64,000 nucleotides of DNA, taken from Calocera cornea HHB12733 (lineage: Eukaryota > Basidiomycota > Dacrymycetes > Dacrymycetales > Dacrymycetaceae). The position numbers were made by a program, and so were the translations under genes. The notes below the pieces were generated by a model that was given only the letters and a program-made list of their open reading frames with translations, was not told where the DNA came from and did not search any database. Shown in pieces: positions 10,619 through 59,274 of this stretch. Within the stretch, counting starts at the first letter, position 1, and every line of letters begins with the position of its first letter. The stretch is taken from contig KV423996.1 in NCBI GenBank assembly GCA_001632435.1, positions 1 through 64,000 on the forward strand, given 5' to 3'.

Positions 10619-11996
10619 CTACACTCGGCGGCTTTGCACGAAGCCCCGAACCTCTGACAAACTGGGACGATCTGCGATTTCAAATCCCCAGCACCGCTGC
10701 ATGAACTCCCACATCTCGTCATCCAGTGCAGGATGACAGTCGGGTGGTCGTTCCGGATTGATACCGCCGATTACATTACGCATGAGGTCCTACGGGGACC
10801 GAATGAAGTTGTAGTACGGTTCTCTGCCTGAGAGAACAGGCAATAGTAAGCACACGCAAGCGCAATAGTTACCTGAATTAACTTACTTCCAAGAAGGTCC
10901 GCATGAGCTGAAACACGTCACTTGACGGGGTATAGCCCTCTTCGGAATCGGCGAAGCCGAACATGGATGGGTCAACGAGTTCAAACGGAAGCCAGCGATA
11001 TGCAACTCCAGGGGCATCGTCCAATCCATCTTCGTATTCGGCTCCGTAATGCTGTTTCAGCCGCTCATGCCCGAAATCTCGAATGAGTGCTCGGGGCTGG
11101 CCGTGTGGTATCTCTATTAGGATGTTACTCTGTCAGATGGTACCGTATTCGTGAGTTACCTCCATTCGCGCGTAAAGAGATTCTCAAGCGACGTACACCC
11201 TTCAGGCCACCATGTATGATGGGCGGAGTACGAGAGTGCAGAAATTCAAGTGCTTTGATGACGTTCAGAAGATGCTGATGTTATCGCTCTGGACCGAACG
11301 AACCTACTAAGCGCACGTACCATGGCAAGTCGATCCGAGTTTGCTGCATGTTGGAGATACTGTATGATGTTGCCTTCCTCCATCCAGGCTGAAACGAGAC
11401 TGATGTGGTAACCTCCCCAACGGGTAAAGGGATAGTCCAGAATGTCAATTCCAAGAAATGGAACGATGTTTGGATGCTGAACATTGAAACACTTGCATGC
11501 TTCCCGAAGGCTCATCTGCACCTTTGTAAGTACCGTGTACGGAGGCAATTGAGGGGAAGCCACTACCCGATAAGCTGTCGCACCTGTCTTGTGAAATAGC
11601 GATTTCGATGCTACCAGGCCCCCATCCTTCAGCTCAACGCGATACACGGGTACATAACTGCCGCCTATACATGTCTTGCCAAGGTCATATGCCTGGATTC
11701 GATCATTGTATGTAGTTGCATTCCTTGGGAAACACATTGAACATGTCAGGCTCGGCGAGATCCCACTTGTAGCTGCACTGTCGGTGCTCTCTGGCTAGTA
11801 CAAAATGGGACCTATAAGCGACGTCGATAGTCTTACGACTGTCGAGGATGCAGTACAGGCGGATCAGGCCGGCTTCACTTCATCGCAATTGACAATGATC
11901 CTGCGAATAGGTGCATCAGCACCAATGACGCGATAAGCCTCATTTGTCTACTCACTTGACAGCACACGAGATACGTTGGGAGACGGCGTGAGACAT
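10619..11996 (-). pseudogene. ZPK1: broken Zn2Cys6-pseudokinase gene
   Basis: Reads from ATG 11996 leftwards to a stop at 10621-10619. The zinc-cluster exons are recognisable by alignment with ZPK5, but the first Cys is Arg and the codon where the fourth Cys should stand is TGA (11866-11864). A four-base insertion near 11708-11713 shifts the frame just after the CSYKWDL start of the kinase domain. A second in-frame stop (TAG, 10792-10790) lies in the C-lobe. Recognisable kinase blocks are GGLVASKSLF, NVQHPNIVPFLGI, SRTPPIIHGGLKG (catalytic Asp replaced by Gly), IRDFGHERL and the C-lobe ALDDEMWEFMQRCW. The transposon sits immediately 3' of its stop codon. The gene is dead; its nearest relative in the window is ZPK5. 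Confidence 0.85.
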
Positions 11997-12208
11997 TGAC
12001 ATTGTAGTGAACAGACATGAGATGGAACTCAAGAGGTCTCTAAACCTAGCTCAAAAAGGCAACTGCATAGCCTCGGGTGAACGCGTGCGTCTCGGGTTTC
12101 CGCGTCGTCAAAGCTTTAATTAGACGCTTGCACACACACCTCTCACATCTCCCTTCTGATCGTCCAGGGACATACACTCATTATAATACACAAGAATCGA
12201 TCAGGACG

Positions 12209-13593
12209 ATGGAGCCCGAAGCTCAAGTTGCTTGTATGAACTGTGTCGTTCGGTACGTGAGGTGGTCTATCAAGGGCGACGACGGCTCAGGACTGCTTTG
12301 TAGGGCGCGTGGATGCAATCGGGACGCCAGTACGTCCATTTGCCATCCATGCTCCAGCGAAGGGCTGGGATCGGTATGTATTACCTTGTATCACCTTGAT
12401 TGAGGGGATATCGATGATAACTCTTAACCCAAGTGCCGATATACCGAAGAGCGCTATTACGATGATCTCGGCGATATCCTGGAACCATCAATGAACTTCA
12501 ATGACCATCTCATGCCCTTCAACTGGGGCTCCATGGTCAAGTTCACTTATGGGTCAGTATATAGAGGTGATATGAAGGACGGCGGCATCGTCGCTGTCAA
12601 ATCTCTCTTCCGAGACGGTATGACGGGCGTTCTTGAAGTTCAAGTGCGTATCTCCCGTTGCCCCGAGCCGCCAAGAAGTACTGATTGCGATCCAGCTGGC
12701 CCTCAGGAACGCGTGGACCTGGTCGCACTTGGATCACCAGAATATTGTGCCTTTACTTGGCGTGGTTGACTATGCCAAGTGGTACCCTCCGCAAGTACCT
12801 CAACTCTGCCTCGTAACGACGTGGATGCCGGCTGGCAACATCATGGAATATCTGTCGAGCCATCCAGAAGCCGATAAGATCTCATTCGTAGGGCTGTATC
12901 CTGTGATTGTATGGGCACGAGCTAACCTCCCTCAGCTTCTGCATGCGGTTACGGGATTGGAATATTTGCATTCTCAGGTTCCGCCTGTCCTCCACGGCGG
13001 ACTCAAAGGAGTACGTTAATGTTCTCGAATCACACCAAAGCCTATGCTAATGAGCAGTAGAATAACATCTTGATTGATACCCAAACCGGCACTCCTCGGG
13101 CACGACTGAGAGACTTCGGTCATAGGCGGCTCCTCCAACAGTTCGTTGACAAACGAGAAAGAGAGTCCACATACCTACCTCCACTGGGAAATCCTCGCTG
13201 GATTGCCTTCGAACGTTTGAACCCCTGCAAATATGACATAGAGGAAGAATCAGATATCGAAAGTGTTCACAGCGATGTGTTTGAGCTGATGAGGACCACC
13301 TTAGAGGTAACTGCCGTCTTTCAGCAATTCCAAAGTACGGTTTTGACCATATCCAGGTTTTCACCGGACGTCGACCATTCTACGATGTTGATTCTGACCA
13401 CGCGGTGCTTCGCATGACGGACAAGGGTATCAACCCTGTCCGTCCACCAACAAACGAGACATCTCCCGAGGTTGATGACAGCATGTGGGAGCTCATGCAG
13501 CGTAGCTGGAACGGAGTCAGAAGCCAACGTCCCTCACTAAGTGAAATACGCGAAGCGCTGGAGTTGAGACTTGCGGGTGGCCACCTGGAGTGA
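12209..13593 (+). CDS. ZPK2: Zn2Cys6 zinc cluster fused to a pseudokinase
   Basis: From ATG 12209, the first exons give ACMNCVV, then ARGCNRDASTSICHPC, and the kinase exon begins CRYTEERYYDD. Together they make C-x2-C-x6-C-x8-C-x2-C-x7-C, within the Zn2Cys6 limits. The kinase part has a glycine-loop-like YGSVYRG, VAVKSLF (Lys kept), an alphaC block LRNAWTWSHLDHQNIVPLLG, and PPVLHGGLKG, where the catalytic Asp is Gly. It ends with RDFGHRRL and the C-lobe DDSMWELMQRSW. Introns interrupt HGGLKG/NNILI and the C-lobe as in the other copies. There is no C-terminal extension. I see no frameshift. It is probably a DNA-binding pseudokinase or a regulator of the active paralogues; that role is inference. 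Confidence 0.75.
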
Positions 13594-14254: not shown

Positions 14255-15652
14255 ATGGTGACAGAGGGTAAAGCATGTATGAATTGTGTTGTTCGGTAAG
14301 AGAGTAGCTTTCATGGGGAGCGGTACGAACTGAGGACGACTGCTTAGGATGCGCCCATGCAATACAAGCACTCCGTCTTGCACGCCGTGTTTGATTGATG
14401 ACCTCCGCTCAGTACCTGTCTTTCTCTCCTTTCAACTTTAATTAGGCTGATGTTGTGTGTCTGAATGAAGTGCCTATACGAGGCAGAGGGGTATCTCAGC
14501 GATCTCCACGATGTCCTGCCGCCGTCGGCAAACTTCAATGATCGGATTCTGCTTTTCAAAGACGGTTCGACCATCAATCGCCGATATGGTACCATGTATC
14601 GAGGCGATCTCAAGGATGGTGGCGTTGCTGCGGTTAAGGTTCTGTTTCGGGATGGGTCGAAAGGGGAGCTTGCAATTCAGGTCCGTGTGCCATCGCTCGC
14701 CCGTGAGACGCCCCGTCAACTGCACTTTAGCTCGTATTGAGAGCTGCTTGGGTCTGGTCACAATTGGACCACGTCAACATCGTGCCATTTCTCGGCGTCG
14801 TTGATTACGCCATACCCAGTCCTCGAAGAGCACATCAGCTTTGTATTGTTTCGACTTGGATGCCGGCAGGTGATATCAATTATCATGCACTATACATCGT
14901 GCAACTCAGAGTCTACGACGATGTCCCTCGTACGAATCTATCAGATGGCTGTAAGGGCATTAATCGATTTCCCTTAGCTGCTGGACACTGTGCGAGGACT
15001 TGAATATCTACATTCCCAAGTACCACCAATTCTCCATGGTGGTCTGAAAGGGGTATGTGTTCCATTCTCGATCCGAAAATAGATTATTTGAACCTCCGGT
15101 AGAGCAACGTGTTGATTGACACTCGAACGGGTTATCCGCGGGCCCGTCTGAGAGACTTTGGTCATAGACGGATTATTCAGCAGTTCGTCGAAGATCAAGA
15201 AGCGATGTCCTCATACATACCTCCGCTGGGAAATCCTCGCTGGCTTGCCTTCGAACGTCTGAAGCCATGGAAGTACGACATAGAGGAAGAGGGGGACATC
15301 GAAAGTGTGCACAGCGATGTTTTTGAGCTGATTAGGACATTCTTCGAGGTAATCAGTGCCTTTTCAGACTCTTCCAACGTCCATTTCTGACGATGTCTAG
15401 GTTTTGACCGGACATCCACCCTTCTTTGACGTTACCTCCGATCGTGCCGTGCTCCTCATGACCGACAATGGTCGAAATCCGGACAGACCACCTCCCAGCG
15501 AAGCTTCCCCGGAACTCGACGACGAGCTGTGGGAACTGATGCAGCGTGCTTGGAACCGAGACAGGAGCCAGCGTCCACCCCTGAGCGAGGTACGCGGAGT
15601 GCTGGAATCGAAGCTGGCGGCCGGCTGCTTGACTGAAACTGAAGTGGCTTGA
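14255..15652 (+). pseudogene. ZPK3: Zn2Cys6-pseudokinase gene with a frameshift
   Basis: A close relative of ZPK2. Exons from ATG 14255 give KACMNCVVR, MRPCNTSTPSCTPCLIDD and CLYEAEGYLSDL, so the cluster is C-x2-C-x6-C-x6-C-x2-C-x7-C. The kinase N-lobe is whole (YGTMYRGDLKDGGVAAVKVL, LDHVNIVPFLGVVDY, STWMPAGDI). Right after MPAGDI, at about 14870-14886, roughly seven extra bases shift the frame. The homologous sequence (IMHYTSCNSESTTMSL) resumes one frame over and joins the next exon LDTVRGLEYLHSQVPPILHG properly. The catalytic loop is HGGLKG, so it was a pseudokinase. The C-lobe to EVA at 15652 is intact. An unusual intron could rescue it, but I found none. Confidence 0.75.
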
Positions 15653-16004
15653 TTTTTGGGTTGTGTGGAGCGGGTTGCAGCGTTCTTAGCCGGGCAAATG
15701 CAAATCTCTGAATCTCACCGACTTGTGACTGTTGTAACTTATAATACCAAGACACCATTCCGGCAGTGCCATTATCCGTCCGCATCGCTGGCAGAGTAAG
15801 CACGTTAAATACTGTGAGGTAGATAGTGTGGAACAGCAGCTCCTGTCTTGGGCAATCGTCCTGGCCGTGTTCACCGTTCGCGCGCAATGATCAGGCGGAG
15901 CACCTGATTAGTTCGCACAAACGGTTGATCCGAGAGGCATGGGAATGACAATGGACAACGAGACAGTCTAGTCCCTCCAAAATAGCTGGACAACAGCGAC
16001 CATC
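15653..16004. other. Intergenic, upstream of the EthD gene
   Basis: No gene seen. The last 30 bases are shared with the duplicated copy upstream of 22147. Confidence 0.4.
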
Positions 16005-16473
16005 ATGCCGATCCTTCGAGGTCTACGTGCAACATTCCTGTTGACCAAGAAGGAGGGCATCACCGATGAGGAGTTCAAGAACCACTATCTCAACATCCAC
16101 GCGCCGATGAGTCTGGAGCTGATGAAGCGGCACGGGGTGATCTCGTACACGCATGTGCGTATCACAACGCTGTTGCAAGGTCGACAGAGTGCTGATACTG
16201 ATTGGGCTGTAGCAATACCTGAGCGCCTCCTCGAAAGCCGAGCTCAGCTCAGCGCTGGGCGGGCACACGCCACAAATTCCGTACGACGCCGTGACGACGA
16301 TCGGGTTCCCAAGCCTGGAGGCGTTCAAGGCATTCCTTGCGGACCCCGAGAACCTCGGGAGGCTGAGGGAGGATAGTAAGAACTATGCGCAGGCGGGGCC
16401 GGGGACGGTGCAGATTGGGTGGGGGGAGGAGTGGGTCGTTATTCATGAGGGTGATGTAGTAGGGGAGGCGTAG
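16005..16473 (+). CDS. EthD-domain protein, intact copy
   Basis: Exons 16005-16154 and 16213-16473 give 136 residues. The start MPILRGLRATFLLTKKEGIT, then EEFKNHYLNIHAPMSLELMK, is a typical EthD dimeric alpha/beta-barrel opening, with the conserved F-x2-H-Y-x4-H pattern. A second half, VTTIGFPSLEAFKAFLADPE ... YAQAGPGTVQIGWGEEW, closes the barrel. EthD proteins are small cytosolic ferredoxin-like folds, often enzymes or accessory factors of polyketide or ether metabolism; the substrate here is unknown. The gene is followed by a truncated copy of the helicase 5' end, and the pair is repeated at 22.1-23.6 kb, where this gene is broken. Confidence 0.82.
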
Positions 16474-17732: not shown

Positions 17733-19203
17733 TCAGGCTACACTATGAGCATTGCCGCCGACCACACGACCTGGAATGTGCTTTCCTTCCCTGAAGAAGC
17801 AGTCGATTTCGTGAAGGGAAGGACGCTCATTAGGGTTCCTCCATGCCTGCTCCATCAGCGCCCAAGCAGCATCATTAACGCCATACGCTGGCTGTGGTGG
17901 ATTTCTTTTGGACAGAAGCTCGTCCAGAAGACCACCGTTGGTTCGAATTGATGGGTACGGCACTTGACCCGAGAGTATCTGTCAATATGAACAATTTAGC
18001 TCTGAGCGGATATGCAGATGAAAGACGGATACTGGAATCAAAGTTCGCATTAACTCGAAGATGTCACTTTGAAACGTTCGGGCAGCGGGATTGTGACGGA
18101 ACCCGAAGGAACCAGGGTTTACCCGCTCGAAGGCAATATAGTGTGGATTTCCTCCGTAGGATGTTGGGGTGCTCTCCGAAATCGAGTCGTCATCTACCTC
18201 CCCGTACGAGAGGCCGAAGTCAGTCAGACAGGCTCGAGCACGTTGGCTGCTGACAGCCAAGTCAACGAGAATGTTGTTCTAAGCAATGATCGTTGGTACT
18301 ATCTCATAGGAAAGGCAGATGTATGGGCCGTATAGCTACTTACGGGCTTGAGGTCGGCGTGTACAATGTCATGAGCATGCAGGTACGTGAGACCAGCGAC
18401 AATGTCCAGAATCTACAGTGATCAATAAGTAATGCAATATAGCCAAGAGGAAATGTTTCAGTTACCAGCGGCGTCAGTGACACATCAGGATGTTGTTGCA
18501 TATAATCCGTGACTATTCCCCCTTCCATCCATTGCGAGACGAGGGCAATTGTTCCGGTCGGACACGATGAGCGATATGGATCATGTTTCACCACCTTGTC
18601 GAAGTTGGCAATCCCCAAGAAGGGGACAATATTCTCGTGATTGAGCTTCTTCCAAATCCACGCTTCACGGACGAACAGCTAGAGATTCACAAAGGTCAGC
18701 CCCACCTGTCTACGGAGTAAGGAAGATGTATTCGCCAGTGTGAGTCTCTGCCACTCGTCTCTGTACCGCTCGGTTCGTGAAGCACCAAGTTCAGTCCCTG
18801 CATAGGTTGCGGGTGGAGTGCTTGGAACTTTCATTGCAACTGCAAGCTGAGCATCAAGGATTCCTTCATGAATCAACCCCGCTGCTCCTCCCATATCGGG
18901 TCGTAGTCGGCCTTTGTACACCAAGCGTGTCGCCATGACCTCGCTCCCGGGTGGAAAGAGCTTGTCTAGAAGCGGACCAAGCTCCCAAGTATTTGTGCAG
19001 CCCAACTGGCTTTGGTCAGAAATACCAATCAGGCGTAATAACCTGCACACACCGGTTCATTCTGGCAGAAACCACATATGGGCTGTAAGGCGGTACGGTC
19101 ACATGTACGGCGTCTGAAATTCGGGGGTCAACCAGCAGAAGAGAACGAGTGACTGATTGGCTCACCGTAGTCCGCACGGGATGCACGGGAAATTTGTGGC
19201 CAT
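17733..19203 (-). CDS. ZPK4: Zn2Cys6 cluster fused to a kinase, catalytic residues kept
   Basis: From ATG 19203 the exons 19203-19166, 19113-19053 and 19005 onward give NFPCIPCGLR, RRTCDRTALQPICGFCQNEP and LGCTNTWELG. The pattern is C-x2-C-x6-C-x8-C-x2-C-x6-C with a basic linker. The kinase part is the most divergent of the set. It has LAVAMKVP (Lys), VREAWIWKKLNHENIVPFLG, VSQWMEGGIVTDYM and DIVHADLKP with Asp present. These are followed over an intron by NNILVDL, CLTDFGLSYG, a substrate-binding region HYIAFERVNPGSFGF and the C-lobe NDAAWALMEQAWRNPNERPS. HxDLK, Asn and DFG are all present, so activity is possible. The intron between VAMK and the alphaC exon (about 18680-18790) is uncertain. 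No C-terminal extension. Confidence 0.72.
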
Positions 19204-19561: not shown

Positions 19562-20967
19562 TCAGGAAGGACGATCGGCGAAGACCTCTCTGTCCAGGGG
19601 TTGATAGCGCTGAAGGAACACCCGTACTTCGGACAAATCGGGACGGTCCGTCAATACTAGGCTCCATGCACGTTCCAGGAACAGCCACATGTTATCGTCC
19701 AACGCCGGATGACAGTCGGGTGGGCGCTGGGGATTGATGAGGCGAATAGACTTGATAATCGCATCTTGATCACGCCGCACATTGTAGTACGGCATGCGTT
19801 CCGAAAGAACCTGCGCGGCAGTGAGAATAGAATGTGCAAGTCAGTAACAGAGCGGATTTACCTCCAAACAAGTTCTCATGAGCTCAAAGACGTCGCTGGC
19901 CACAGTGTAGGTCTCTTCCCACTCAGTGAACCCAAATTTGGAAGGACAGCAGTGCTCGAAAGCCGCCCAGCGATAAGCAAGGCTGGGAGGAAATGGTGAT
20001 TGCAGCTCATATTCCGCCCCGTAATTGATTCTTGCACGCTCGTGTCCAAAGTCGGTCAGAAGAGCCCGCGGGTGACCGGACCGCACATCTATGAGGATAT
20101 TGCTCTGAGAAAGTCCCGTGGCATGTGAGCGCTTGTAATCACAGCAAAATCGGAACGGATCGCACCCCTTTGAGCGCACCATGTATGATCGGTGGCGTGC
20201 AGGAATGAAGAAACTGGAGCGCATCCACCGCATTCAAGAGCTTAAGACCGTGTCAAGGAGGGAGTGCCATGGCTGGGCAGCAATGTGACTTACAAATCCA
20301 ATACGGTCTGCCTTGGGATGGCGGATAAGGTACTGCATAATGTTTCCTTCCTCCATCCAGGTCGAAATGAGACACACTTGCTCGAGACCAGAATAAGTGA
20401 TATACCGGAAATCGGCAATTCCGAGAAAAGGAACGATGTTCGGGTGTCGCACATTGAACCAGATCCATGCTTCGCGAAGGCTTATCTGCATGCCTACATG
20501 AGAAGCGGCGCTGAGATAGTGTCTCATTGGACACACCAGATATGCCGTTGCTCCCACTTGTGGCTGATTGTGGAAGAGCGCTTTGAGTGCCACGCACCCT
20601 CCCTCTTTGAGCTTGACCCTGTGCATACTTCCGAATCGACCGCCGACCCAGTTGCTCATCTCGGGGAATGGCTGGATGCGGTCATTGTAATTGCATTGTT
20701 TGGGGAATGCATCAAAGATGTACGACTTGGTCAAGTCCCAGTCATAGCTGCACTGTGCCATATTAGGTTTTGAGCCAGGAACCTTCGGACAGGCAGCTCC
20801 GGTGACGTACGACATCTGATGACCCTTGGCAAGCCCCGCAAGTGGGCTTACCTTCGTCACACTGCAGATTCCTGTCGATAACAAATTCATGGGTCTAGTT
20901 GATACAAAGAAGTTGTTTCTACTCACTGGACGGCACATCGTATACATGGAGGGACAGCGTGAGACAT
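19562..20967 (-). CDS. ZPK5: Zn2Cys6 cluster fused to a pseudokinase
   Basis: ATG 20967 starts MSHAVPPCIRCAVQ; the second exon gives LQCDEGKPTCGACQGSSDV and the third begins CSYDWDLTKSYIFDAF. This makes C-x2-C-x6-C-x6-C-x2-C-x6-C. The kinase domain has GGRFGSMHRVKLKEGG, VALKALF, ISLREAWIWFNVRHPNIVPF and CTPPIIHGALKG, with the catalytic Asp replaced by Ala. It goes on to ILIDV, LLTDFGHERA and the C-lobe ALDDNMWLFLERAW. It ends at 19562 without an extension. DFG and Lys are kept but the proton acceptor is not, so nucleotide binding without transfer is likely. ZPK1 is its dead sister. No frameshift seen. Confidence 0.78.
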
Positions 20968-29936: not shown

Positions 29937-32875
29937 ATGACAGACTCTACACCCATGGGGTGTATCTGCTGCGGCGCAAGGTATGCCGTCGGTTCACGTA
30001 GCCCTGGCCTATTGTCCTGATTACGATCCAGACGGTTTCGATGTGATGGACTTCGTCCACAATGCGGCCGATGTCAAGAAGAACTACGCGTGGTCAGCAC
30101 CCACAACTTGTCAGTTCATCTCAAAGCATATATTCTCATTGTTTCCGCCGTAGTGCACGTACGCCTGGGTCCTTGGGGATGACATATTCAATCTGTTCCC
30201 GGCCAAGGCTAACCTGAACGAGGAAGTTCGACTGGATATGCAAGCGTCTCAAGCAGGCGGCGGCGGTTTTGGACGAGTTTATCGAACATCAACCAAAGCG
30301 GGTCAGGCGATTGCTGTCAAAGTCTTGTACGAAAACAAATGGACGCCCGTGCGCACACTGGAGGTAAGTCTCCCTTCCGCGATGCTTGGACTTTCTCATA
30401 TTTGCGCACTAGCTCTCCATTCGAGAAGCATGGACATGGTCACAGCTGGATCACCCAAATATTGTACCCTTCCTGGGTGTTGCCGACTATTCCGTTATAT
30501 GCAAAGGGGCAATCGCTCAACTTTGCTTGATATCACCATGGATGAACGAGGGCAACATCATGTCCTATATTGTCCAGAACCCAACCCAGGATCGCCTTCC
30601 ACTGGTCAGTGTATACTGCATTCAGTCTCTTGTGATGTTGATGATTGGTCGTACAGCTGGCCGGCTTAGCAAGAGGACTCGGCTATTTGCACTCCCATGG
30701 AACTTCACCCATCATTCATGGTGATATCAAAGGCGTATGTTCATACCATACATCATCGGTTCTGTACTTTCTGACCAGGTCTTGAAGAACAATGTTTTGG
30801 TTGAGTCGCGCGAGGGTCAGGTTGTTGCTCGTTTGACTGACTTCGGTTTGGCTCATGTGCGCGAGTCATTGGAAGAGCTTGGTCCTTCCACAACCAGTAC
30901 TTTAACGCAAGGGAATGTGCGATGGATGGCGATTGAGCGGCTCAACCCGGAGAAGTATGGTCTTCACAGCCATCGCGATGCTAAAACGACGAAGAGTGAT
31001 ATATTCGAACTAATGCGAACATTCTATGAGGTGGGTTTCTGAGGTTGCGGTAAACTGTTAACTCATGCCAGAAATTAGATTCTAACCGGGAAAATCCCGT
31101 TCCAGGAGCTGGGTGACATGACACTATTACGACGTTTTCATCGAGATTCGGAAGAGACTCCGGGTAGACCGACGGAGCCCGTTCCCGGATTGGATGACGA
31201 TATGTGGAAACTGATGTTGAGAGCATGGTCCTCGGACAGAGACAGTCGACCATTGCTGTCTGAGATCGTAGATTACCTCGATCCCATGACATTGTTCAAC
31301 AGTCTGGTGTGTATGCAGTGCTGTTTCAATGCGAATGCCGCTGACGGTCGTGGACAGGGAGATCACATGGATTTGTCGACGTTCCGCTACATCAGTAGCA
31401 CACCCATTCTGCGGCGGATGCTCCTTCGCAAACGACACCAGTTCTCTCGGATCTCACTGTCATTCACAGCCGACATTGCTGCAGAGCTCCAGAATATCCG
31501 CGAACTGGTTCAATTCCTCCCGCCTTCCCGATGGACGAGCGTCACTTTGCAGTGGCCGTCCGCCTGGGGCGTGGACAAATTGTGGTTCTCCCTATTCGGC
31601 GTTCACCAGCCACCGTTGGTCGCAGGGCAGTTGCAGTCGTTATTGCTGAACTCCTACGTACACCTGAACCAGGTGGCAGCAGGCGCACTGCTTGCTAATA
31701 GCATTCAGACCTTTGCTCCTGGCCTCAAACAGCTTATTGCAATCAACACCCCGATCTTCTGGCACAAGCTAGTGGCATGGGGCCTCGAAGAACTTCGGAT
31801 CGTGAATGATCCAATGTTCGGCTCTCAACGACCTCCCGCCTTGTCCGAACTACACGGCATCTTGGCTGCCTCACTGGAGCTCAAGCGCCTGTGCCTCATG
31901 TACGGTCTCGCCTCAATAGATCCCGCTGGATCGACTGACGATGTAATCCCCTTGAACCGCCTCACCATGCTATCAATCGATCAGGTGTACAAAGAGGATG
32001 TCGATCGGATTCTCGGACTTTTCAGTGCGGAGAATCTCGACTGCATGGTTCTCGGGCACATTCAAGAAAAGAGGCTGATTAACACCGATTACGTATGGGA
32101 AGAGGGGCGTATGAAGCTGCGAACAACCACGTACTCCGCCAAATTCCTCGACCCGTCATCGTGGTGGCCGATTATGGCGCACAGCAAGCTGAGGATGCTC
32201 TCTCTTGCAGCGCCGTATGTATCATCAAAGCTACTCTTACGCGTACTGGATCTTCCCCGCTTGGAGGTATTGGACATACTCGATGGAGTCTTCGTCGAAG
32301 TCGATGAGTTCGAACCCGATTCCCGTCCTTGCAGCCTAACGATACTGCGATCCGGCAACAGCAACATGGTGCACTCGATTGGAGAGTTGACCGGACAGTT
32401 CTTCGAGCCAGTACTCGGGCCGCTCGACGAGTTTCTCAACAGTGATTTCCCGGGGGTATCGATCTTGAAGAGATACCAGGAGTATCTACCAGTTGCCGAG
32501 AAGGCTATCTGGTACCACACACCGGCGGCAGCTCTTCCACCACTAAGTCGCGAGGACCGAGCGAAGTTCACGAGGATCTTCGACAACACCGGGCCGTACA
32601 TGGGTCTGTTGCCGGCAGGAAAAGCCCGAGGGGTCATGCTGAAGTCCCGGTTGCCGACCGAGACTGTCGACCGGATCCTAAGACTAGCCGACAGCCAGAG
32701 GCGAGATCACTTGGATCTCGCCGACTTCATTGTTGGCATGTACTTCGTGCAAGCGATGATGAACGACCGGCTGCCGAAGCTGCCCGCGACGCTGCCGGAG
32801 GAGCTGTATGCAAAGGCGGCTGTGAGTCGTTCTGATATCTCGTCACCGTCGTCTCCGTTTTCGCCCTTTTCATAA
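29937..32875 (+). CDS. ZPK6: Zn2Cys6 - kinase - LRR - EH-domain protein
   Basis: Exons 29937-29980, 30032-30092 and 30154 on give MGCICCGAR, RFRCDGLRPQCGRCQEELRV and CTYAWVLGDD: C-x2-C-x6-C-x6-C-x2-C-x6-C (x5 if the donor is three bases earlier). The kinase has GGGFGRVYRTSTKAGQ, IAVKVLYENKW, IIHGDIKG then NNVLVES, and RLTDFGLAHV, so catalytic Lys, Asp, Asn and DFG are present. One open frame (31118-32875) runs from the C-lobe (DDDMWKLMLRAW) through an F-box-type LRR region (INTPIFWHKLVAWGLEELRI, ILAASLELKRLCL). It ends in an EH domain (KFTRIFDNTGPYMGLLPAGK ... LPTETVDRILRLADSQRRDH, DLADFIVGMYFVQAMM). EH domains bind NPF motifs in endocytic proteins. The fusion of all parts is in one frame, so it is not a splice artefact. 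Confidence 0.85.
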
Positions 32876-36692: not shown

Positions 36693-39414
36693 ATGACAAA
36701 CTCCGAGGCGCCTGGCTGTATATACTGCGCAGCACGGTACAGCGTAGTCCGCAATCCCCTCGATTGAGTGCGATCTGATTTTGGAGACAGGCAACTGCGA
36801 TGCGATGCTCGACCGCCAGAATGCAGCCGATGCAAGCAGGAGTGCCGTAAAGTAAGCTTCAATCATCTGCACAGCCGTCCATTAACGCAGTGACTACTTG
36901 TTCAGTGCTCGTACAGCTGGGTGCTCGGAGACGACATATTTGCTCTATTCCAACGAAGCGCTAATCAGAACAAGCAAGTCGTGCTCCATCCGCATGCGCG
37001 TCCAGAGGGCAAAGGTGGGTTTGGGCAGGTATACAAAGCATTATCAAAGAACGGCCAATACGTGGCTGTGAAGGTCCTTTTCGAGCGAGATGCACAGTTA
37101 CCATCGCGCGCTCTTGAGGTTGGTCTGTCGATCTTCAGCGACATGCGCTTGCTCATCATGAGAGCAGTTGGCGGTCCGGGAAGCCTGGACCTGGTCTCAG
37201 TTGAACCATCGCAATATCGTCCCCTTCCTTGGCATTGCGAACTATGAGAAGATCTGCCATGGTGCTCGAGCTCAGTTGTGCTTGATTTCGCCGTGGATCA
37301 ATTTGGGCAATATCATGGATGTTGTGCGGGCTGGCCCCACCGCGCCACGGCTCCCTCTGGTACGTCGCGTCATTTTTTGTTCTACACAACATTGACATGA
37401 TGAATAGCTACGCGATCTAACAGAAGGGCTCATGTATCTTCACACTCATAAGCCGTCTCCCATCGTGCACGGCGATATCCGCGGCGTGCGTGCATATCGA
37501 ACAGACAACGCTGGTCCTCTAACGCCTGATTTAGGGCAATGTCCTCATCGACGTCGTCGAAGGGCGGCGAGTCGCACGCCTAACCGATTTCGGCTTAGCC
37601 CATGTGGTGGAATCTGTTGAGGAGCAACGCACAAATAGCACCACCATGATGCGCGCTGGCAATGCGCGATGGCTAGCGTTCGAGCGAATGATGCCTGAGA
37701 AGTACAACTTGTCGAATCCTCGAGATGCCAAGTCCCCGAAGAGCGACATCTTTGAGCTCATGCGTACATTTTATGAGGTGTGGATAATCGCCTCTCTACC
37801 GTTTCTCCTTCTTAAGGCTTTGAAGGTGCTCATCGGACAAGCGCCATTCCATGGTTTGAATGACTTTGCCGCCATTGCTGCTGTTCAGGAGAAACAGAAC
37901 CCTGAACGGCCGGGGGAAGACCTCGCACCCGAGCTCGACGCAGAGATGTGGCGATTGATGGAGCAAGCCTGGTCCGTGAAGCGAAACGCCCGCCCGCGGC
38001 TTTCCGAAATATTGGATTATTTTGATTCTCGATCAGACATCCGAAAGATGGTCAGTCATACGTATCCACTCTCTTGCCAACGCTTCTGACCACAAGGTAG
38101 GATGTTGAGCGTGAAATGAATCTACAACTGTTTCAACGTGTTATGGATACTCCGGCAATGAAGCGTCGACTATTTCAACATTGGCAGCAAAATCGTCTCT
38201 GGAAGATTGCTATGACCTTGTCGTATCAAGACTATGCGGAAGAGGCCGCTGCATGGGAGCTTCTGTCGCGTGTCCCGCCCTCGCAGTGGGAAAGTTTAAC
38301 CCTGACAACCAACTATGCGGCCGCGATGTCACGAGTTTGGCTCCTGCTGGTGATGGGGACTCCACCTCACATGGCCCGAAAACTGCGTCGTCTTCATCTC
38401 TGCGTGGGCACTTGGGAGAACGCCTGGATCGGCTCTGGTGATGCAGCAGATGACTCGGATTCAAAGACAATACCTCCGCTTCTCGCCTCCACGATACAAG
38501 ACTTTGCTCCTCGCGTCGAAATTCTTCACCTCCTGAACACACCTGTTCGGTGGACGAATTTGGTTGAATGGCCATTATGGGAGCTGAGGCTCGATCACGA
38601 TCGCCAAGTGCCCGAAGCGGTTCCGACCATTCGGCAATGGATCGATCTGTCTCGCACATCGCCAAGGCTGGAGCTCCTGTTCATTGATGGGCAACCCTTC
38701 ATGGAGGACCATCAGACGGAGCTACAAGTAAAGAGCAAGCCGAACTTGTTCCGCTCACTGAAGATGTTATCCTTGTCATCAATGTCGGAAGAAGCCGCGC
38801 TCCAATTCCTCCGTGGCTTGAAGACTCCCGCCCTTCAATGCCTTATCCTCGCCTGCCGACTCTCGCGAACATCTCGACCGCTCTCCCAACAGATAGGAGG
38901 CGATCAATACGCTGCTAGGCTCACGTTGGGGAATACCGTGGCTCGATTCCGCCGGTTACACCCGTGGACGTCCAAGTTGACAATGTTGTCGCTAAAAGAG
39001 CCGGCCGCCGCCATCTCGGGCATTCTCTCTCTCCTCGAGGTACTTCCGTCTCTTGAAGTGCTAGACGCGTCGATCGTGCACTTTGAGGACTTCAAACAGG
39101 ACCCGAGCCAAACGTACTCGCCGCGCCTATCTGTGCTCCGAACTCGAAACACAAAGCTCGCCTGGCGGCTCGACGCGTGGACACAACGACAGTTCATCGA
39201 GATCTCGAAAGGACTGGAAGCGGTATTAGAGCTGCAACTTCCTGCAGTAACGATCTTGAAGGCATACCGGGACTATCTACCGGACTCGGACAGGGCTCTT
39301 TACTATGTTGCGCAACCCAGTCCTGACGGGAATGTCAGGCACAGACGATACTCCAACCCCTTGTCTCCACCAATACTGTTTGAGCCCTTGGGGCATGATC
39401 TCTTCAGCTGGTAG
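36693..39414 (+). CDS. ZPK8: Zn2Cys6 - kinase - LRR protein
   Basis: Exons 36693-36736, 36791-36851 and 36906 on encode PGCIYCAAR, QLRCDARPPECSRCKQECRK and CSYSWVLGDD: C-x2-C-x6-C-x6-C-x2-C-x6-C. The kinase is complete: GKGGFGQVYKALSKNGQ, VAVKVLFER, LAVREAWTWSQLNHRNIVPF, IVHGDIRG/GNVLIDV, RLTDFGLAHV, AEMWRLMEQAW. The usual Lys of HRDLK is Arg. A linker (DSRSDIRKM then DVEREMNLQLFQ) leads into about 430 residues of F-box-type LRR (VEILHLLNTPVRWTNLVEWP, LSRTSPRLELLFI, LPSLEVLDASIVHF). I see no frameshift. This is the cleanest intact member, together with ZPK10. A nuclear DNA-binding kinase with a protein-binding tail is inferred. Confidence 0.85.
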
Positions 39415-41340: not shown

Positions 41341-44000
41341 TCATGACTGTCTCGGTTTCACCAGCCTGTCCAGTTCCTTTGCCGTGAATATACCCCAGTC
41401 AGGCTCTAGGTCCTCCTTCTTCGGCTGGAAGCCCTTGCAAGGCTCGAACCATCCCAGCTCAAAATCCACATCCCAGAAAGCAGCGTCTACGAAGGGGGGT
41501 TTCCATATGTCGAGGGCAAAGTTTTTCCTTAGAAGAAGTCTCTGTATAGGCGGAAATCCTGCAGAGCGGCGCTGCTGGACGGAAGGCGAGGATGTCTTGG
41601 CCATTGGAAGTCCACTCGACCCGCAGTATCTTCAAGCTGGGAAGCAAGGTCAACTGCGCAGCCGCCAGCTCGATCGCGGGCACACGGTAGCATCGGAGAA
41701 CCTCAAGGGAGGAGGACAGTGTTTGCAGCAGGCCCACGGGATTGTCCTCCCAAGAGAAGCTGTCAAGGATCAGCATCTTGAGTCCGGGCCAGTAGTCTCC
41801 AGTCAACGAGTACAATGGATCGAGTCCGTCCGGGTAGCTATCGCACGGGCCACAAATCTCCATCAGCTTTGCATCAGACAGGAGCGTCATGACGGCCAGT
41901 GCCATGGGGGTCGTCCAAATGTGGATATGAAGGACCTTCAAATTGGAGGGCTGCAATGAGACGTTTTGGAGCTGCCGCAGGGTGAGATCATTTGTGGCTT
42001 CTCTTCTCAAAGCTCGATAGGCAGGACTCCAGATCTCATACGCAGTCATCCTCCCAACTTCCTTCTCTTCTACGACAAGCCGCTCCAGATGGGGAGACCT
42101 GTCTAGTACCACACAGAGTTGAAGTAGCTGCTGAGAAGGCGATAAATCAGGTCGATCTGATGTTTCCAAGTAAAACTGAAGGTTCCGTAGACTCCATGCT
42201 AGCAGTCCATGGAAGTTACCGAAGATGTGATCAAGGACCAGCGTGTGCAGATTGGGAATATAGTTCAGGTACGATGATCCCAGGGGAACAACTCCACGAT
42301 CTACGTCCTCTCTTTCGTCCCTCAATTTCAAGTACCGCAACTACGGCATGGCGGTAAATATCGATTGAAGAGCCAGAGACTCTTCTGGAGCGCCGGAAAG
42401 TTGTATATAGGCAGTATCCACATCAAGCTCGAATAAACGAAGAACCTCCAGGGATCCCCGGGGCAAGTAGGACCAGTCTGAGACGTTCAGTCGAACGGCC
42501 AATGTACGTTGCTTGTTATATAACACCTTCCTCCATACGGTTTGCGAGACAGAAAAGGCGGCATCCCATAATCGGGCTTCGTCCTCCTTTTAAGCATGTT
42601 GAATATCCTACCTCGTTGCTCAGTTGAACCGCTCACCAGAAGCTCCTCCACCGCTATACTGTCCATAACCATTTGTTTGATGGTTTTCAGAGACGGTCTT
42701 TCGTGTCGATTTGGTGACCATGCTTGGAGCATCGCATTCCACGTGTCATCATCCAATCCACAACAATATCCGGATGGGCGGTCTGGATTTTGACCTTGTC
42801 CAGCCGATATTGCCGCGCCGATGTCCGATTTTCCCTGGAACGGAACCATGCCGGTCAAGATCTGAATTACAACAACATTATCAGCCTAGTAGACTGCGAC
42901 ACTAGATCCCATACCTGGAAGAAGGTGCGCATCATCTCAAAGATGTCACTATATGTCGACTTTGCTTCGGACTGTCGCAATCCACTCGCAGCAGGATCGA
43001 GCCGCTCAATGGCTAGCCATCTCGCATTGCCTTGGAAAGTGGCACTAGTAGTTGCCATGTGCTCCCAGTGCATGGTGTATTCCGCGAGTTGAGACAAGCC
43101 AAAGTCCGTCAGATATGCAGTTGGCCGGTTTTGCGTGACCCCCACGAGGACATTATTCTGGTAATATGGTGTTCAATACTGAAAAACAGTATGGACAGAA
43201 CATGACGTACCCCTTTGAGATCGCCGTGAACAATGGGTCCCATTTGATGAAGGTAGGACACCGCATCGATAATATCCATCAGCTGTACCTCATCAGCTGA
43301 CCAAGCACTACACACAACGAAGAGCGTACAAAGTACAGCCGGTCATGCGAGGGGTTATCTCCAATGAAGTCCATGACATTTCCGTCTTTCATCCATGGCG
43401 AAACCATGCACAGCTGCGGACGAGCCATAGGCCCGCATACCACAGAGTAATCGGCGATACCCAAGAGAGGAATGATATTCTTGTGGTCGAGACTATACCA
43501 GAGGACCGCCTCACGCAAGGAGAGCTGCGGAGACCATGAGATGTGAGCTGCTACAGACCAACATGAATCACTCAGCGAACCTCGACCTCTCGTGGTGCCA
43601 ACCACTTGTTCACATAGAACACCTTCACAGCAACGAGCAAGCCACCGTTCAACCGTGTTTGATAGATTGTAGCAAACCCGCCGATGTTGTTCTGCCGAGC
43701 ACTGATGTCGAGATTGAAGCGCCGTTCAAGTTGGCGTACGCCGGGAACATTTGAAATACCCCTGGTCCCACCGCCCACTCGTAGGAGCACTGAAGATATT
43801 GGTGAGCGTGCATCAGGCAGCCGAGACTAAACATGCCGGCCAGTTCTCAAGGGTACAGCGAGCACAGACGGGACGGGTACGATTACATGACAATCTCCTG
43901 CGAATACGTATCGAATGAGCCCGGCAGTTGGTGGTTACAAAGGGGACGCGCACCTTATACCACAAGGTAGGCACCCGGAGGTCACTGCCAGTTCGCTCAT
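41341..44000 (-). pseudogene. ZPK9: Zn2Cys6 - kinase - LRR gene with a decayed tail
   Basis: From ATG 44000 the exons give SGCLPCGIR, RLSCNRTRPVCARCTLENWP and, after a GC-AG intron, CSYEWAVGPGVF: C-x2-C-x6-C-x6-C-x2-C-x6-C. The kinase part is complete: GGFATIYQTRLNGGLLVAVK, SLREAVLWYSLDHKNIIPLL, IVHGDLKG/NNVLVGV, YLTDFGLSQL, DDTWNAMLQAW. The tail is damaged. The frame changes near 42520 (YGGR/LYNKQRTLAVRL), an in-frame TAG at 42343-42341 interrupts FTAMP*LRYLKLRDE (probably once CAG), and one extra base near 41560-41585 moves the last 70 residues (FPPIQRLLLRKNFALDIWK ...) to another frame. A truncated zinc-cluster kinase could still be made. Its LRR tail is copied in the chimera at 52.1 kb. 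Confidence 0.75.
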
Positions 44001-55690: not shown

Positions 55691-56601
55691 ATTTGGAATG
55701 ACCACTCGAATCGTGCGTGTGCTACCTGCGTATGGTGCTCGTCATGCTGATCCGTTCACGCAGCGATGTCAGGTCGGCATCCTCCCTCGCATCGACCGGG
55801 CGGCGAAACCTATATCGGCCACAAGCCGCCTCATCTCGCATCGATCTCCTGCGATCATCCAACACATGGCCCCCATGTACGCAAGTGCATACATGGACAT
55901 CCTCCAGCTCTCAATCGTCTGCTTAACCTTGAGATCCGATGTCACGATTGCGACCGTGCCACCAAGCGCAGGAAGTGTATGATCGCCGGCACAGTCGGGA
56001 CGAATCTGCTCATAGGCATGGAGTAGCACGCAATCGCGCGCGTTCTACTGGATCGTCCCCCTTATCATACTTGTCTATGGTCACGAATCTGCCGCACAGC
56101 ACTCAGCTACAGTCACCCTGCTGGCTGAAGATGAACCAGGCGGGTATGCTGGGAGGGACATTGGGCGATACGAGGATGATGTAGGCAACCGCGATGCACC
56201 AGGCGAAGCTCGAGATGATGCACGATAGGCGAGGGAATGTGACGGGAAGGACAGACAAGCCTGGGGAGCATTTGTGACATTCTAGACGGGCGACTACTGT
56301 ACAGAGTTGGACTGCTCCGTATCGAAGAACGCTGTTTGCGCAAGTGACTGCACACTACTAGCCGCTCACCACAACAGCGTGCATCAGCAACAGAAACCCC
56401 AGTTTGCCTGGGATCACGCCGCGATTCAGCAATGACCAGCGAAGGAAGCACTGTTGTTCTCGACCATTGCATAGCGACGGGAACAATAGTTTAGAATCAG
56501 ACGAACTCCCCAAATTGGAAGGCGCTGCATAGCCATAAGCCTCATTGTACTCTTATCGCATTGAGCCACCTGCCAGTTCCCCACCACAGCGCTTCGCATC
56601 G
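55691..56601. other. Intergenic, 0.9 kb, before ZPK10
   Basis: A short plus-strand frame at 55930-55980 reads IRCHDCDRATKRRKC, which looks like part of a zinc cluster, but no exon structure supports a gene. Confidence 0.35.
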
Positions 56602-59274
56602 ATGTTGGCAATGCCCTCTCCACCAACAAGCTGCATCTGCTGCGGAGCAAGGTGTGCTGTATCTCATAATGGGAGAGCTGCTCGTCTGACATTTGCAGAC
56701 GTCTCCGATGCGATGGACGCCGTCCAAATTGCTCCCGATGCCAGCAGGAAGGACGAAATGTACATACCTCTAATTTCCATGTTATAACCGTCCCCCGGCT
56801 GACGGGGTCATGCAGTGCTCCTATGTGTGGGCGGTGGGAAGCGATATCTTCAGCCTCTTCCTGCCAGAGGCCAATTTGAATGATGAAATCCGGCTTCAGA
56901 TGTCTTCTCCAGACATAAGTGGCGGTGGGTTCGGCCGCGTATATCAAACAACGACGAGGAGCGGTGCCCTGGTAGCCGTTAAAGTTCTCTTCGAGAACAG
57001 GTGGGTCGCACAGAGAGCATTAGAGGTTTGTGATTGCTGCCAGAAGCGTTGGCTTGCTGATTCATTGTCATAGCTCTCCGTCCGTGAGGCCTGGACCTGG
57101 TCGACGCTATCCCATCCCAACATTGTACCCTTCCTAGGTGTTGCGAACTATGGACTGATTTGTACCGGAGCGTTGCCTCAGCTTTGCCTCATCTCACCTT
57201 GGATGGACGGCGGCAACATCAGGGAATACGTTTGTGAACATCCCTCTGTTGACCGCTTTCGGCTGGTATGTGAACTCTGGATACCATCGAAACCACATCT
57301 CAACAGAAGCTAACGAGGAGCGCCGTTAGCTATTGGATATGGCTAAGGGCCTCCAGTATCTGCACACTCGTTTCGCTTCACCCATCATTCACGGTGACAT
57401 CAAAGGAGTAAGTACATAGACTGCAGTCACTTCACGCAATCTTACACCAGCCATACTCAACTGTTTTCAGAGCAACGTCTTGATCGACACCCGCGGCCGC
57501 TCGGTGGTGGCACGTATCACAGACTTCGGGCTTGCGCACCTCAAGGAGGGATTAGGGGAAGATGGACAGGCGACCACGAGTACAACCTCACTGGGAAACC
57601 TACGATGGATGGCTTTTGAAAGGGTGCTTCCGGCAAACTATGGTATTCACTCCAATCGTGCTTCCTTGAGTCTGGAGAGCGACTATTTTGAGCTCATGCG
57701 TACGTTTTATGAGGCAAGATGGTACGACAGGTATTGGCGGAATTTTTGAGCTAATGAAGTGTTGCAGGTGCTGACTGGCAAAATACCTTTCCATGGCATG
57801 TCGGAGATGGCCGTCTTTGGCGCCCTTCAGCTAGGACAAAATCCCCCACGACAAGTGGATGGAAATACCCACATTGACGACGGCATGTGGGATCTTATGC
57901 AAAAGGCGTGGTGTTCGGACAGAGACAAGCGCGTACACATTCTACGTGAAGTTTTGGAGTACCTGGAAGGGGTCGTGTACTTCAATGCTCTCGTGAGTCC
58001 GGCAGTGCATCAGAGATCTTGCACTAATTCAAAGCTAGAGTGGAACCCTAGACTTGAATGAACACACCTCCAAACGATTACGGGATGTTGGAGGCTTGTG
58101 GATGCCGGCATTCTTCGAAAGACATGGTTCAAAATTTCAACACATCAGACTCTATTTCGACTCCAAAGTGGATGACGACCACTCCTATCCTTATGTACAT
58201 CTACTGCGACATGTTCCGCCTTTGCATTGGGAATCTCTGGAGCTTTTCATCTCTCCTGAAGGATTCGACAGGGCGCGGCGCCTGTTGAGGAGCTCAATTC
58301 CAACCACGGGCTGGACAGCAAGGGCATCCAAGATTGAACCTGCCCGACACTTGCAGTCTTTGCTACTGGCATATCGGGACTCGTTTGAACGGCCGGCCAA
58401 GGAACACCTTCCCTCCAAGATTGTACAGGCCTTCGCCCCCGGACTCAGTCAGCTTGTTCTTCTCAATTTCCCAATTACATGGGAAGGACTTGTTCCGTGG
58501 CCATTGACGGAGCTTCGGATCATCAACGATGGTCTGATACAAGGGTTGCGGCCGCCTACATTTGCTGAGCTTCACGCTATATTGGCTGCCTCTCCTGCCC
58601 TCCAACGCTTCTCTCTCGCAAATGGCCTTATATGTATGTCAGAGGACGGGAATCTCCCTGAAGAGCGACTAGGAGAACGTCCCTTGCGCATGCTCTCGTT
58701 TGACCATGTGCGCTATGGAGATGCGCTTCGCATTACGTCGCTCTTTGAAGCCCCTCAGCTGGAATGTCTTGTCCTTCTGCACATGAAGAACCGTCAGGCG
58801 GCCCTGAATGTTCGAGTAGACTGGAACGGCGGCCGCCTGATAGTACGGAACAACACTCTGGCTCAGGCAGTCACCAACGACCCGCCTACCGTGACCATCA
58901 TCTTCCGATATCAGCCCAGTATTCGGATGCTCTGCCTTGCTACTGAACACATTTCAGCAGTTTTCGTTGACACGATTTTGACTTTGGACGCCCTGCAAGT
59001 CCTCGACATCTCCGTGGACCAGTTCTTTGATGATGTCAATCAACCAGAGGTTGATCGCCCCCGGCACAACCTCACAGCTCACCCGTCCTTGTTGCGGGTA
59101 AACGACCGCGCCCTCCTCACCTACATCGAGAAGTGGCTTGGGGAAGACTTCAAGCCAATACCCTGCTCTTTTGAGGATTTACGGGAAGCAACCCACCCCA
59201 TTGTCTCGCTGATGCAGCGCTATGGAGAGTATCTGCCAGCGGGCGAGAAAGGGCAGTGGAGGACGACATTGTGA
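56602..59274 (+). CDS. ZPK10: Zn2Cys6 - kinase - LRR protein
   Basis: Exons 56602-56651, 56699-56759 and 56816 on encode SCICCGAR, RLRCDGRRPNCSRCQQEGRN and CSYVWAVGSDIF. This is a textbook C-x2-C-x6-C-x6-C-x2-C-x6-C cluster with the CDGxRP core of Gal4-type factors. The kinase has GGGFGRVYQTTTRSGA, LVAVKVLFENRW, SVREAWTWSTLSHPNIVPFL, IIHGDIKG/SNVLIDT, RITDFGLAHL, DDGMWDLMQKAW. After VYFNAL an intron leads to SGTLDLNEHTSKRL and an LRR region of about 400 residues (LVLLNFPITWEGLVPWPLTE, ILAASPALQRFSL) ending at TTL. All junctions are in phase and no lesion is seen. Active catalytic residues are all present apart from Gly in place of Arg in HRD, as across the family. Confidence 0.87.

Follow-up and report, generated by a model that had tools for sequence, protein, structure and literature searches.

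Introduction

Zn2Cys6 zinc clusters, whose six cysteines are spaced C-x2-C-x6-C-x(5-12)-C-x2-C-x(6-8)-C, count among the most common domains that bind DNA in fungi, where they are known from regulators. Zinc is also contained in the WRKY domain. According to the passages cited here, Lys17 and Lys18 of Gal4 contact DNA (PMC3384613), Lys18 is linked to CGG, and AlcR is a known monomeric binder (PMC5559640). In the sections of PMC2838846 used here, TKL kinases are described as numerous in Laccaria bicolor, with a printed figure of 25, and Fungal_trans occurs once among 30 fungal kinomes, with species and gene unnamed; the word "zinc" is absent from the main text. In Arabidopsis, WRKY19 is printed as MITOGEN-ACTIVATED PROTEIN KINASE-WRKY19, with TIR, NB-ARC and LRR (excerpts of PMC7020509).

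An initial annotation of the first 64,000 nucleotides of Calocera cornea HHB12733 contig KV423996.1 (the window) had claimed ten genes fusing a Zn2Cys6 cluster to a protein kinase, and knew of no described fusion of this kind. Likewise, targeted searches of an open-access library listed none, judged by titles and the starts of abstracts, and none occurs in excerpts from some of the papers that mention both Zn_clus and Pkinase. The single Fungal_trans kinome case is similar in pairing a kinase with a component of fungal transcription factors. WRKY19, which also has LRR, is similar in that its name implies one protein with both a kinase and a WRKY domain that binds DNA, but the DNA-binding domain, the domain order and the kingdom are different, and the likeness is drawn without a claim of homology. 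Here, we describe about two dozen genes of the C. cornea genome that join a Zn2Cys6 zinc cluster to a protein kinase and almost certainly constitute a genuine family.

Results

Copies in the window and elsewhere in the genome

The genome was searched with a splice-aware scan for C-x2-C-x6-C-x(5-9)-C-x2-C-x(5-9)-C split across three exons. Nine matches were found in the window, each immediately 5' of a kinase exon (Table 1), while 60 same-length first-order Markov sequences, used as a chance control, gave a single match (mean 0.017 per random window). Twelve more copies with the strict three-exon cluster were located farther along the same contig and on two other contigs. The strict arrangement was present in 21 of 24 clade members, as detected by an imperfect scan that overlooked one family member. 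The annotated count of ten holds for nine window copies with the six-cysteine cluster, but ZPK1 is a broken copy, and ZPK9 combines an intact cluster with a frameshifted kinase exon. The kinase-like remainder of ZPK1 groups with ZPK5 in the kinase tree. The model of ZPK7 is unsure around REAW, where the motif is missing and the intron is just 39 nt.

Table 1. Features of the ZPK copies, numbered by their position in the window.
Feature	Position	Strand	Details
ZPK1, broken copy	10634..11996	-	Cys1 lost; two in-frame stops in best spliced alignment
ZPK2 zinc cluster	12209..12436	+	exon 1 12209-12252, exon 2 12304-12373, Cys6 codon 12434 (start of exon 3); spacing 2-6-8-2-7
ZPK2 kinase exons	12434..13593	+	catalytic Asp replaced (HGGLKGNN)
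ZPK3 zinc cluster and kinase	14255..15652	+	cluster 14255-14295, 14348-14411, 14471; catalytic Asp replaced (HGGLKGSN); no full-length PF00172 match
ZPK4 zinc cluster and divergent kinase	17733..19203	-	spacing 2-6-8-2-6; HADLKPNN
ZPK5 zinc cluster and kinase	19562..20967	-	PF00172 24.9 bits, over cut-off; catalytic Asp replaced (HGALKGSN)
ZPK6 zinc cluster	29937..30156	+	exon 1 29937-29980, exon 2 30032-30092, Cys6 30154; CDGLRPQC core
ZPK6 kinase	30154..31306	+	catalytic residues present
ZPK6 C-terminal LRR-like region	31358..32524	+	putative fold, from ZPK10 homologue
EH domain (PF12763), end of ZPK6 open frame	32543..32875	+	57% identity to C63:28027-28353
ZPK7 zinc cluster and kinase	33176..34526	+	cluster 33176-33222, 33281-33341, 33397; TGA 34524-34526
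Fungal_trans (PF04082) open frame behind ZPK7	34582..35934	+	in phase with ZPK7 exon 7 but 3' of TGA
ZPK8 zinc cluster and kinase	36693..38050	+	cluster 36693-36736, 36791-36851, 36906
ZPK8 C-terminal LRR-like region	38101..39414	+	tail identity 29-35% among ZPK6, 8, and 10
LRR-like open frame behind ZPK9	41459..42340	-	open frame
ZPK9 zinc cluster and kinase	42619..44000	-	cluster 44000-43954, 43897-43837, 43789; PF00172 32.3 bits (N-terminal 58 aa); frameshift in exon 3
ZPK10 zinc cluster	56602..56818	+	exon 1 56602-56651, exon 2 56699-56759, Cys6 56816; PF00172 23.0 bits, over cut-off
ZPK10 kinase	56816..57992	+	PF07714 E 1.9e-27; catalytic residues present
ZPK10 C-terminal LRR-like domain	58039..59274	+	AlphaFold2 mean pLDDT 73

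Gene structure and constraint

Gene structure was compared among 20 open models, of which 8 lie inside the window and 12 outside it. As annotated, all 20 have Cys1 and Cys2 encoded by exon 1, Cys3 to Cys5 by exon 2, and Cys6 by the beginning of the kinase exon, with intron 1 always in phase 2 and intron 2 in phase 0. Intron length was 46-61 nt, with the exception of 1 of 69 introns. Without exons 1 and 2, five of the 20 copies would have no methionine ahead of the ATP-binding lysine, which speaks indirectly against transcripts that begin at the kinase exon, the other outcome that the initial annotation had set against its reading. Pooled pN/pS was 0.51 for the cluster, 0.50 for the kinase, and 0.84 for the leader before Cys1; the cluster value was 0.72 once the six cysteine columns were removed. 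Among the 14 closest pairs, cluster pN was lower than pS in all 14, and higher than kinase pN in 12 (for example, 0.30 vs. 0.12 for L045/L048). Both the fusion, as seen in gene models, and the constraint on the cluster exons are observed directly. Exons 1 and 2 are short (33-49 codons), as they might be if ordinary kinases were preceded by distinct zinc-cluster mini-genes, or by 5' leaders that stay unspliced, and the fusion were a gene-model error, but this is extremely improbable given the placement of Cys6 on the kinase exon, the fixed phases, the constraint, the kinase exons lacking methionine, and the strict arrangement in most clade members. The first four of these also uphold the annotated view that the cluster cannot be a separate gene.

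Homology of the zinc cluster

Of 21 N-termini, 20 matched PF00172 with an E of 0.1 or below (1.2e-8 for the strongest), compared to 2 and 1 of 21 for other families, consistent with the Zn2Cys6 identity first assigned; a complete lack of PF00172 matches, which the initial annotation had set against its own reading, was looked for and did not occur. When the eight full-length window models (ZPK2-8 and ZPK10) and the 58-aa N-terminus of ZPK9 were entered in a Pfam scan, both PF07714 and PF00069 matched all eight models. PF00172 was over the curated cut-off in two of the eight (ZPK5 and ZPK10) and in the ZPK9 N-terminus, was below it in ZPK4, 6, 7, and 8 (E 0.0017-0.01), and had no full-length match in ZPK2 and ZPK3. 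In a search of the family profile against PDB sequences, nothing ranked before RSC3 (1.5e-6), GAL4 (5.8e-6), HAP1 (7.1e-6), and Cep3 (8.6e-6), and 47 aa of ZPK10 by themselves matched HAP1 (E 1.8e-4). When all six frames of the genome were searched with PF00172, 24 places were listed, with none on the contig of the window, as expected since two introns cut the cluster.

All 21 aligned N-termini contain the six cysteines, mostly spaced 2-6-6-2-6, a constancy partly due to selection since cysteine spacing was a scan condition. D or N follows Cys3 in 21/21, and Pro precedes Cys4 in 18/21. The spacing, the C[DN] at the third cysteine, a C-x-Y end, and the N-terminal place are shared with GAL4, HAP1, RSC3, and Cep3. 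The CDxxxP core with 2-6-6-2-6 spacing, annotated for ZPK7, 8, and 10, was present in these copies but not confined to them, being found in ZPK6 as well. Zinc binding by the cluster is presumed from these features. Although full-length PF00172 scores are weak or absent in ZPK2, 3, and 4, it is scarcely credible that the six cysteines arose by chance or convergence, unrelated to Zn2Cys6, when so few matches are expected per random window, four zinc-cluster proteins are foremost among PDB sequences, PF00172 is nearly universal among the N-termini, and the residues beside Cys3 and Cys4 are retained. The homology of the cluster is in this sense directly demonstrated.

Candidate sources of the cluster were also considered. 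No link is claimed to the regulator on C127 that resembles the Fungal_trans half behind ZPK7, since copies without that stretch have the cluster too, and on C127 the cluster has a different sequence and is encoded in a single open frame together with the Fungal_trans part. A scan for an intron position that ZPK shares with ordinary zinc-cluster genes found none in the C187 genes; judged by eye from three-frame translations, these are apparently interrupted at Cys2 rather than three residues later, at the Arg codon. A weak N-terminal match at C49:34488 (E 0.005) had no cluster in three-frame reading.

DNA-contact positions and linker

Among the aligned N-termini, the third residue after Cys2 (+3) is basic in 20/21 and +4 in 17/21. 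These positions correspond to Gal4 Lys17 and Lys18, and in this the family is like GAL4-type clusters. Unlike them, basic residues are never found at +1 or +2 (0/21 each), and +5 and +6 are each basic in 5/21, compared to 5/6, 3/6, and 5/6 at +1, +2, and +6 in zinc-cluster proteins that this genome encodes, a small set representing 6 of the 24 PF00172 places. Mean net charge of the core was 2.5 (range -1 to 7) for ZPK and 3.7 (3 to 6) for those six proteins. Only ~33 residues separate Cys6 from the kinase glycine loop, leaving no space for the usual linker and dimerisation coil, and by this distance both are absent from the ZPK models. A further difference from Zn2Cys6 regulators is that the ZPK reading frame has no Fungal_trans part (none in the eight full-length models by Pfam scan). 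DNA binding by the cluster is half supported, in that two Gal4 contact positions stay basic and the others do not. The open copies without the catalytic Asp also lack the complete basic pair, yet keep all six cysteines; since they form one clade, loss of the Asp and of the basic pair may be one event.

Kinase domain and clade

The ATP-binding Lys and DFG were directly observed in all 20 open models, and the catalytic Asp in 17, the exceptions being ZPK2, ZPK3, and ZPK5. Four of the 20 kinases lack the REAW glutamate, and several have a degenerate glycine loop. Kinase activity is presumed, as are the substrates. The matches to PF07714/PF00069, the HGDxKGxN, VAVK, and DFG motifs, and the many copies are all features in common with the TKL kinases of L. 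bicolor. The solved kinases closest to the ZPK10 kinase are TNNI3K and mixed-lineage kinases, types that we take to belong to TKL. In contrast to ZPK, 10 other kinases of this genome had no zinc-cluster exons before them in the imperfect splice-aware scan. On kinase residues, 24 ZPK rows formed one clade separated from 10 other kinases with branch support 94/95, on a branch that was unstarred by the tree program. Because the 24 members group apart, a single fusion is favoured. Most likely, a Gal4-type cluster was placed once at the N-terminus of a TKL kinase and the gene multiplied afterwards, and the join looks both real and old. Broken and chimeric copies, and the clade without the catalytic Asp, show that the family is still changing.

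C-terminal tails

In three pairs among ZPK6, 8, and 10, tail identity was 29-35%, compared to 53-58% for the zinc cluster and kinase. The AlphaFold2 model of the ZPK10 tail has an LRR-like fold, with NLRP2 and NLRP9 as best Foldseek matches, followed by TIR1, COI1, CD14, and TLR8, but query TM was low (≤0.41 among the 50 matches listed). This tail matches just 4 places in the genome. The LRR-like frame behind ZPK9 likely belongs to that copy. Assuming no further intron, 10 of the 12 copies outside the window reach a stop ≤38 codons past the aligned kinase end; at one of these, C83:75k, an LRR-like frame follows. The Fungal_trans frame behind ZPK7 shares 58% identity across 360 aa with a zinc-cluster regulator of the ordinary kind encoded on C127. 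NB or TIR parts were absent from the Pfam scan of window models. The LRR-like tails, the EH domain of ZPK6, the Fungal_trans frame, the broken copy, the copies lacking the catalytic Asp, and those outside the window all go beyond the initial annotation.

Discussion

DNA binding and a nuclear place for the ZPK proteins are conjectural, and we tentatively propose, at slightly less than even confidence, that a monomeric cluster keeps the kinase in the nucleus beside promoters. The conserved Arg-Arg/Lys pair would fit into the groove at a CGG-like half-site, or the cluster would sit on chromatin, holding the kinase where it could phosphorylate bound regulators or chromatin proteins. In copies with an LRR-like tail, an input or partner might come via the variable tail, whose role is likewise conjectural, and copies without the catalytic Asp might serve as competitors or scaffolds. 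Taken as a whole, the combination of fusion family and promoter-side mechanism is our best explanation, and we regard it as evenly balanced.

It is possible, though probably not the case, that the cluster is Zn2Cys6 by descent but no longer reads DNA, having become a zinc-stabilised N-lobe cap or a protein-docking or dimerisation module, acting via the Y-x-W ... F that follows Cys6. The conserved stretch does continue past Cys6 into the kinase (Y40, W42, and F52 in ≥90% of 21 N-termini), and a cap or docking module would fit the sparser basic residues, the short linker without coil, and the retention of all cysteines in ZPK2, 3, and 5 without the full basic pair. However, the basic residues at +3 and +4 are hard to explain from folding alone, and the invariant D/N after Cys3 is like that of DNA-binding clusters.

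Compatible with either view of the cluster, but unlikely, is a receptor-like gene cluster with a logic resembling that of plant NLRs with integrated domains, in which a constant zinc-cluster-kinase body would carry fast-changing, sensing C-termini (LRR or the captured host domains EH and Fungal_trans) and the cluster would be the output. Ten copies within one window, tails less alike than the body in the pairs among ZPK6, 8, and 10, the LRR-like fold with its NLRP2 and NLRP9 matches, and the 57 and 58% identities of the EH and Fungal_trans stretches to ordinary C. cornea genes all point this way. On the other hand, NB and TIR parts were missing from the Pfam scan, an LRR-like tail is demonstrated in few copies, most copies outside the window stop early if no further intron is assumed, Fungal_trans sits 3' of a stop codon, and the Foldseek TM is low. 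By analogy, kinases reading DNA via a monomeric Gal4-type cluster, with C-termini swapped for LRR, EH, or the Fungal_trans half of a zinc-cluster regulator, might be a fungal counterpart of plant integrated-domain receptors, which we consider somewhat doubtful.

Returning to the proposed promoter-side kinase, if DNA is still read by the ZPK cluster, one protein would unite signalling by a kinase with the choice of promoter, and the promoter address would be readable by a simple binding assay. Part of the TKL expansion seen in some mushrooms, which is poorly understood, would then gain through the ZPK family a definite role that can be put to the test.

Zinc-cluster kinase genes in the window

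The window lies on contig C83, one of the 302 contigs of a 32.1 Mb assembly. A splice-aware scan of the 64 kb found 9 three-exon clusters of the form C-x2-C-x6-C-x(5-9)-C-x2-C-x(5-9)-C, each followed directly by a kinase exon, while the Markov control gave 1 cluster in total over 60 sequences (mean 0.017). The initial annotation had counted ten copies (ZPK1-10, numbered by position); the nine clusters ahead of kinase exons bear out most of that count, although ZPK1 is a broken copy and the kinase exon of ZPK9 carries a frameshift. Spliced models were built for ZPK2-8 and ZPK10, which together with twelve copies from elsewhere in the genome make up 20 open models.

Cluster and kinase very probably form one gene

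The partition of the six cysteines described in the initial annotation, with Cys1-2 on exon 1, Cys3-5 on exon 2 and Cys6 on exon 3, the kinase exon, recurred in all 20 open models, as did the phases of intron 1 (phase 2) and intron 2 (phase 0). The later introns, as modelled, are in phase 0 with one exception, in ZPK5. In 5/20 copies, the stretch from exon 2 to the ATP-binding lysine is free of Met, and therefore a start without exons 1-2 is possible in these only from another upstream exon.

Pooled pN/pS was 0.51 for the cluster, 0.50 for the kinase and 0.84 for the leader. Since the cysteines were a condition of the scan, the value of 0.72 obtained without the six Cys columns is the fairer figure for the cluster. 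Among the 14 closest pairs, cluster pN was below pS in every pair and exceeded kinase pN in 12. The cluster is under constraint, looser than that of the kinase.

Identity as a Zn2Cys6 cluster

The Pfam model of the Gal4-type cluster, PF00172, scored over the Pfam cut-off in the full-length models of ZPK5 and ZPK10 and in an N-terminal piece of ZPK9, and below the cut-off in full-length ZPK4, 6, 7 and 8; full-length ZPK2 and ZPK3 gave no Pfam match to it. Searching spliced models with PF00172, as had been proposed, thus did return matches, and when copies were scanned as N-termini, 20 of 21 matched at E<=0.1 (best 1.2e-8). A six-frame genome search with PF00172 lacked contig C83 among its matches because introns cut the cluster. 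Against solved structures, the first 47 residues of ZPK10 matched HAP1 (1.8e-4) and GAL4 (2.1e-3), and a 21-sequence profile matched RSC3, GAL4, HAP1 and Cep3 at 1.5e-6 to 8.6e-6, with the ten best rows holding only these four or extra GAL4/HAP1 chains. RSC3 and Cep3 are likewise Zn2Cys6 proteins.

Kinase and C-terminal regions

The ATP-binding lysine and DFG are present in 20/20 open models and the catalytic Asp in 17/20, with Gly or Ala in its place in ZPK2, 3 and 5. ZPK2, ZPK3, ZPK7 and the copy at C83:102k lack the REAW glutamate, and several copies have a degenerate glycine loop, so activity should not be taken for granted. Among solved kinases, TNNI3K, MLK4 and MAP3K9 are the closest in sequence.

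ZPK6, 8 and 10 continue into a C-terminal region of about 390-437 aa, which itself has no Pfam match and is 29-35% identical among the three, vs 53-58% for cluster plus kinase. An AlphaFold2 model of the ZPK10 tail, made from five sequences, two of them partial, alternates strands and helices (mean pLDDT 73); Foldseek placed leucine-rich-repeat proteins on top with low TM-scores, and 2 matches reached E<=0.001. A genome search with this tail found four places: ZPK10, ZPK6, ZPK8 and behind the C83:75k copy. At its C-terminal end ZPK6 carries an EH domain that shares 57% identity with a stretch of contig C63.

Along 360 aa, the Fungal_trans frame behind ZPK7 shares 58% identity with an ordinary zinc-cluster regulator encoded on contig C127 (pN 0.30, pS 0.75). 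It corresponds to the Fungal_trans half of such a regulator, lacking a zinc cluster of its own and standing behind a zinc-cluster kinase; by eye, the residues ahead of the homology look like the start of the ZPK8 last exon.

Other features

Coordinates of further features in the window and at other loci
Position	Feature	Remarks
4700-10420	short, nearly palindromic repeats around CAGGATGCGCATCCTG	as many as 9 copies in a family; some ten perfect ATGCGCA sites; core word enriched over the window's first 11 kb
8412-9005	DDE_Tnp_4 transposase frame	repeats lie in and around it
15997-17400 / 22139-23567	duplicated block, 80-84% identity	small protein gene and 5' end of a putative DEAH-helicase-like gene; helicase-like copy at 16.9 kb seemingly a fragment only
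28638-29040	small Cys-rich frame, by eye	between helicase-like gene and ZPK6
34582-35934	Fungal_trans frame, 450 codons	behind ZPK7 TGA, in phase with ZPK7's last intron
44971-46632 / 48623-50280	duplicated stretch, 71-77% identity	
45878-46633	frame scanned from the stretch 44971-46632	no Pfam match
C11:137800-142200 (L054), minus strand	Cys-rich stretch CDGVPCTGCEERGVDVC, in three-frame translation	~1 kb before a non-family kinase; may be another gene
C187:8000-26000 (L009, L010)	group of ordinary-looking zinc-cluster genes	5 PF00172 matches in 8 kb

Copies across the genome and earlier reports

Searched with the ZPK10 kinase, the genome yielded at least 147 exon matches. Sixteen regions were fetched, and 11 of them, on C83, C158 and C164, contain 14 kinases of the ZPK clade, 12 with a strict cluster. 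At C83:109k, cluster pieces that neither scan accepts show in three-frame translation, and at C164:30k the clade kinase has a broken cluster. The scan found no cluster in ten other kinases of the genome, five from the 16 regions and five fetched separately. A single fusion event is favoured on the kinase sequences, because the 24 ZPK-family kinases share one side of a supported branch in a tree of kinase residues only (support 94/95; 92% of 200 bootstrap trees).

A targeted open-access literature search, mostly at title and abstract level, found no Zn2Cys6-kinase protein; database entries with the same architecture, unremarked, may well exist. A survey of kinases in 30 fungal species counts Fungal_trans once among them, puts the TKL kinases of Laccaria bicolor at 25, and does not use the word 'zinc' in its main text (PMC2838846).

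Possible DNA reading by the cluster

The sequences make it a serious possibility, if a little short of an even prospect, that the cluster tethers the kinase to DNA. In Gal4, Lys17 and Lys18 contact the target DNA (PMC3384613), Lys18 bonding the CGG guanines, and in Pho7 the position of Lys18 is taken by Asn (PMC5559640). These lysines correspond to positions +3 and +4 after Cys2, which are basic here in 20/21 and 17/21 copies. ZPK2, 3 and 5, the copies without the catalytic Asp, also lack the full basic pair, but they share one common ancestor in the tree. The rival view, that the cluster is a structural or docking cap, is a lesser but still tangible possibility: residues +1, +2 and +6 are basic in 0/21, 0/21 and 5/21 copies, vs 5/6, 3/6 and 5/6 in zinc-cluster proteins of the same genome, and the mean charge of the core is less positive than in those six proteins. 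Whereas Gal4 has a linker and coil after its cluster, only about 33 residues separate Cys6 from the glycine loop in the ZPK family, so both elements are absent. Tethering through DNA reading would need the cluster to act as a monomer, for which AlcR is a known precedent (PMC5559640).
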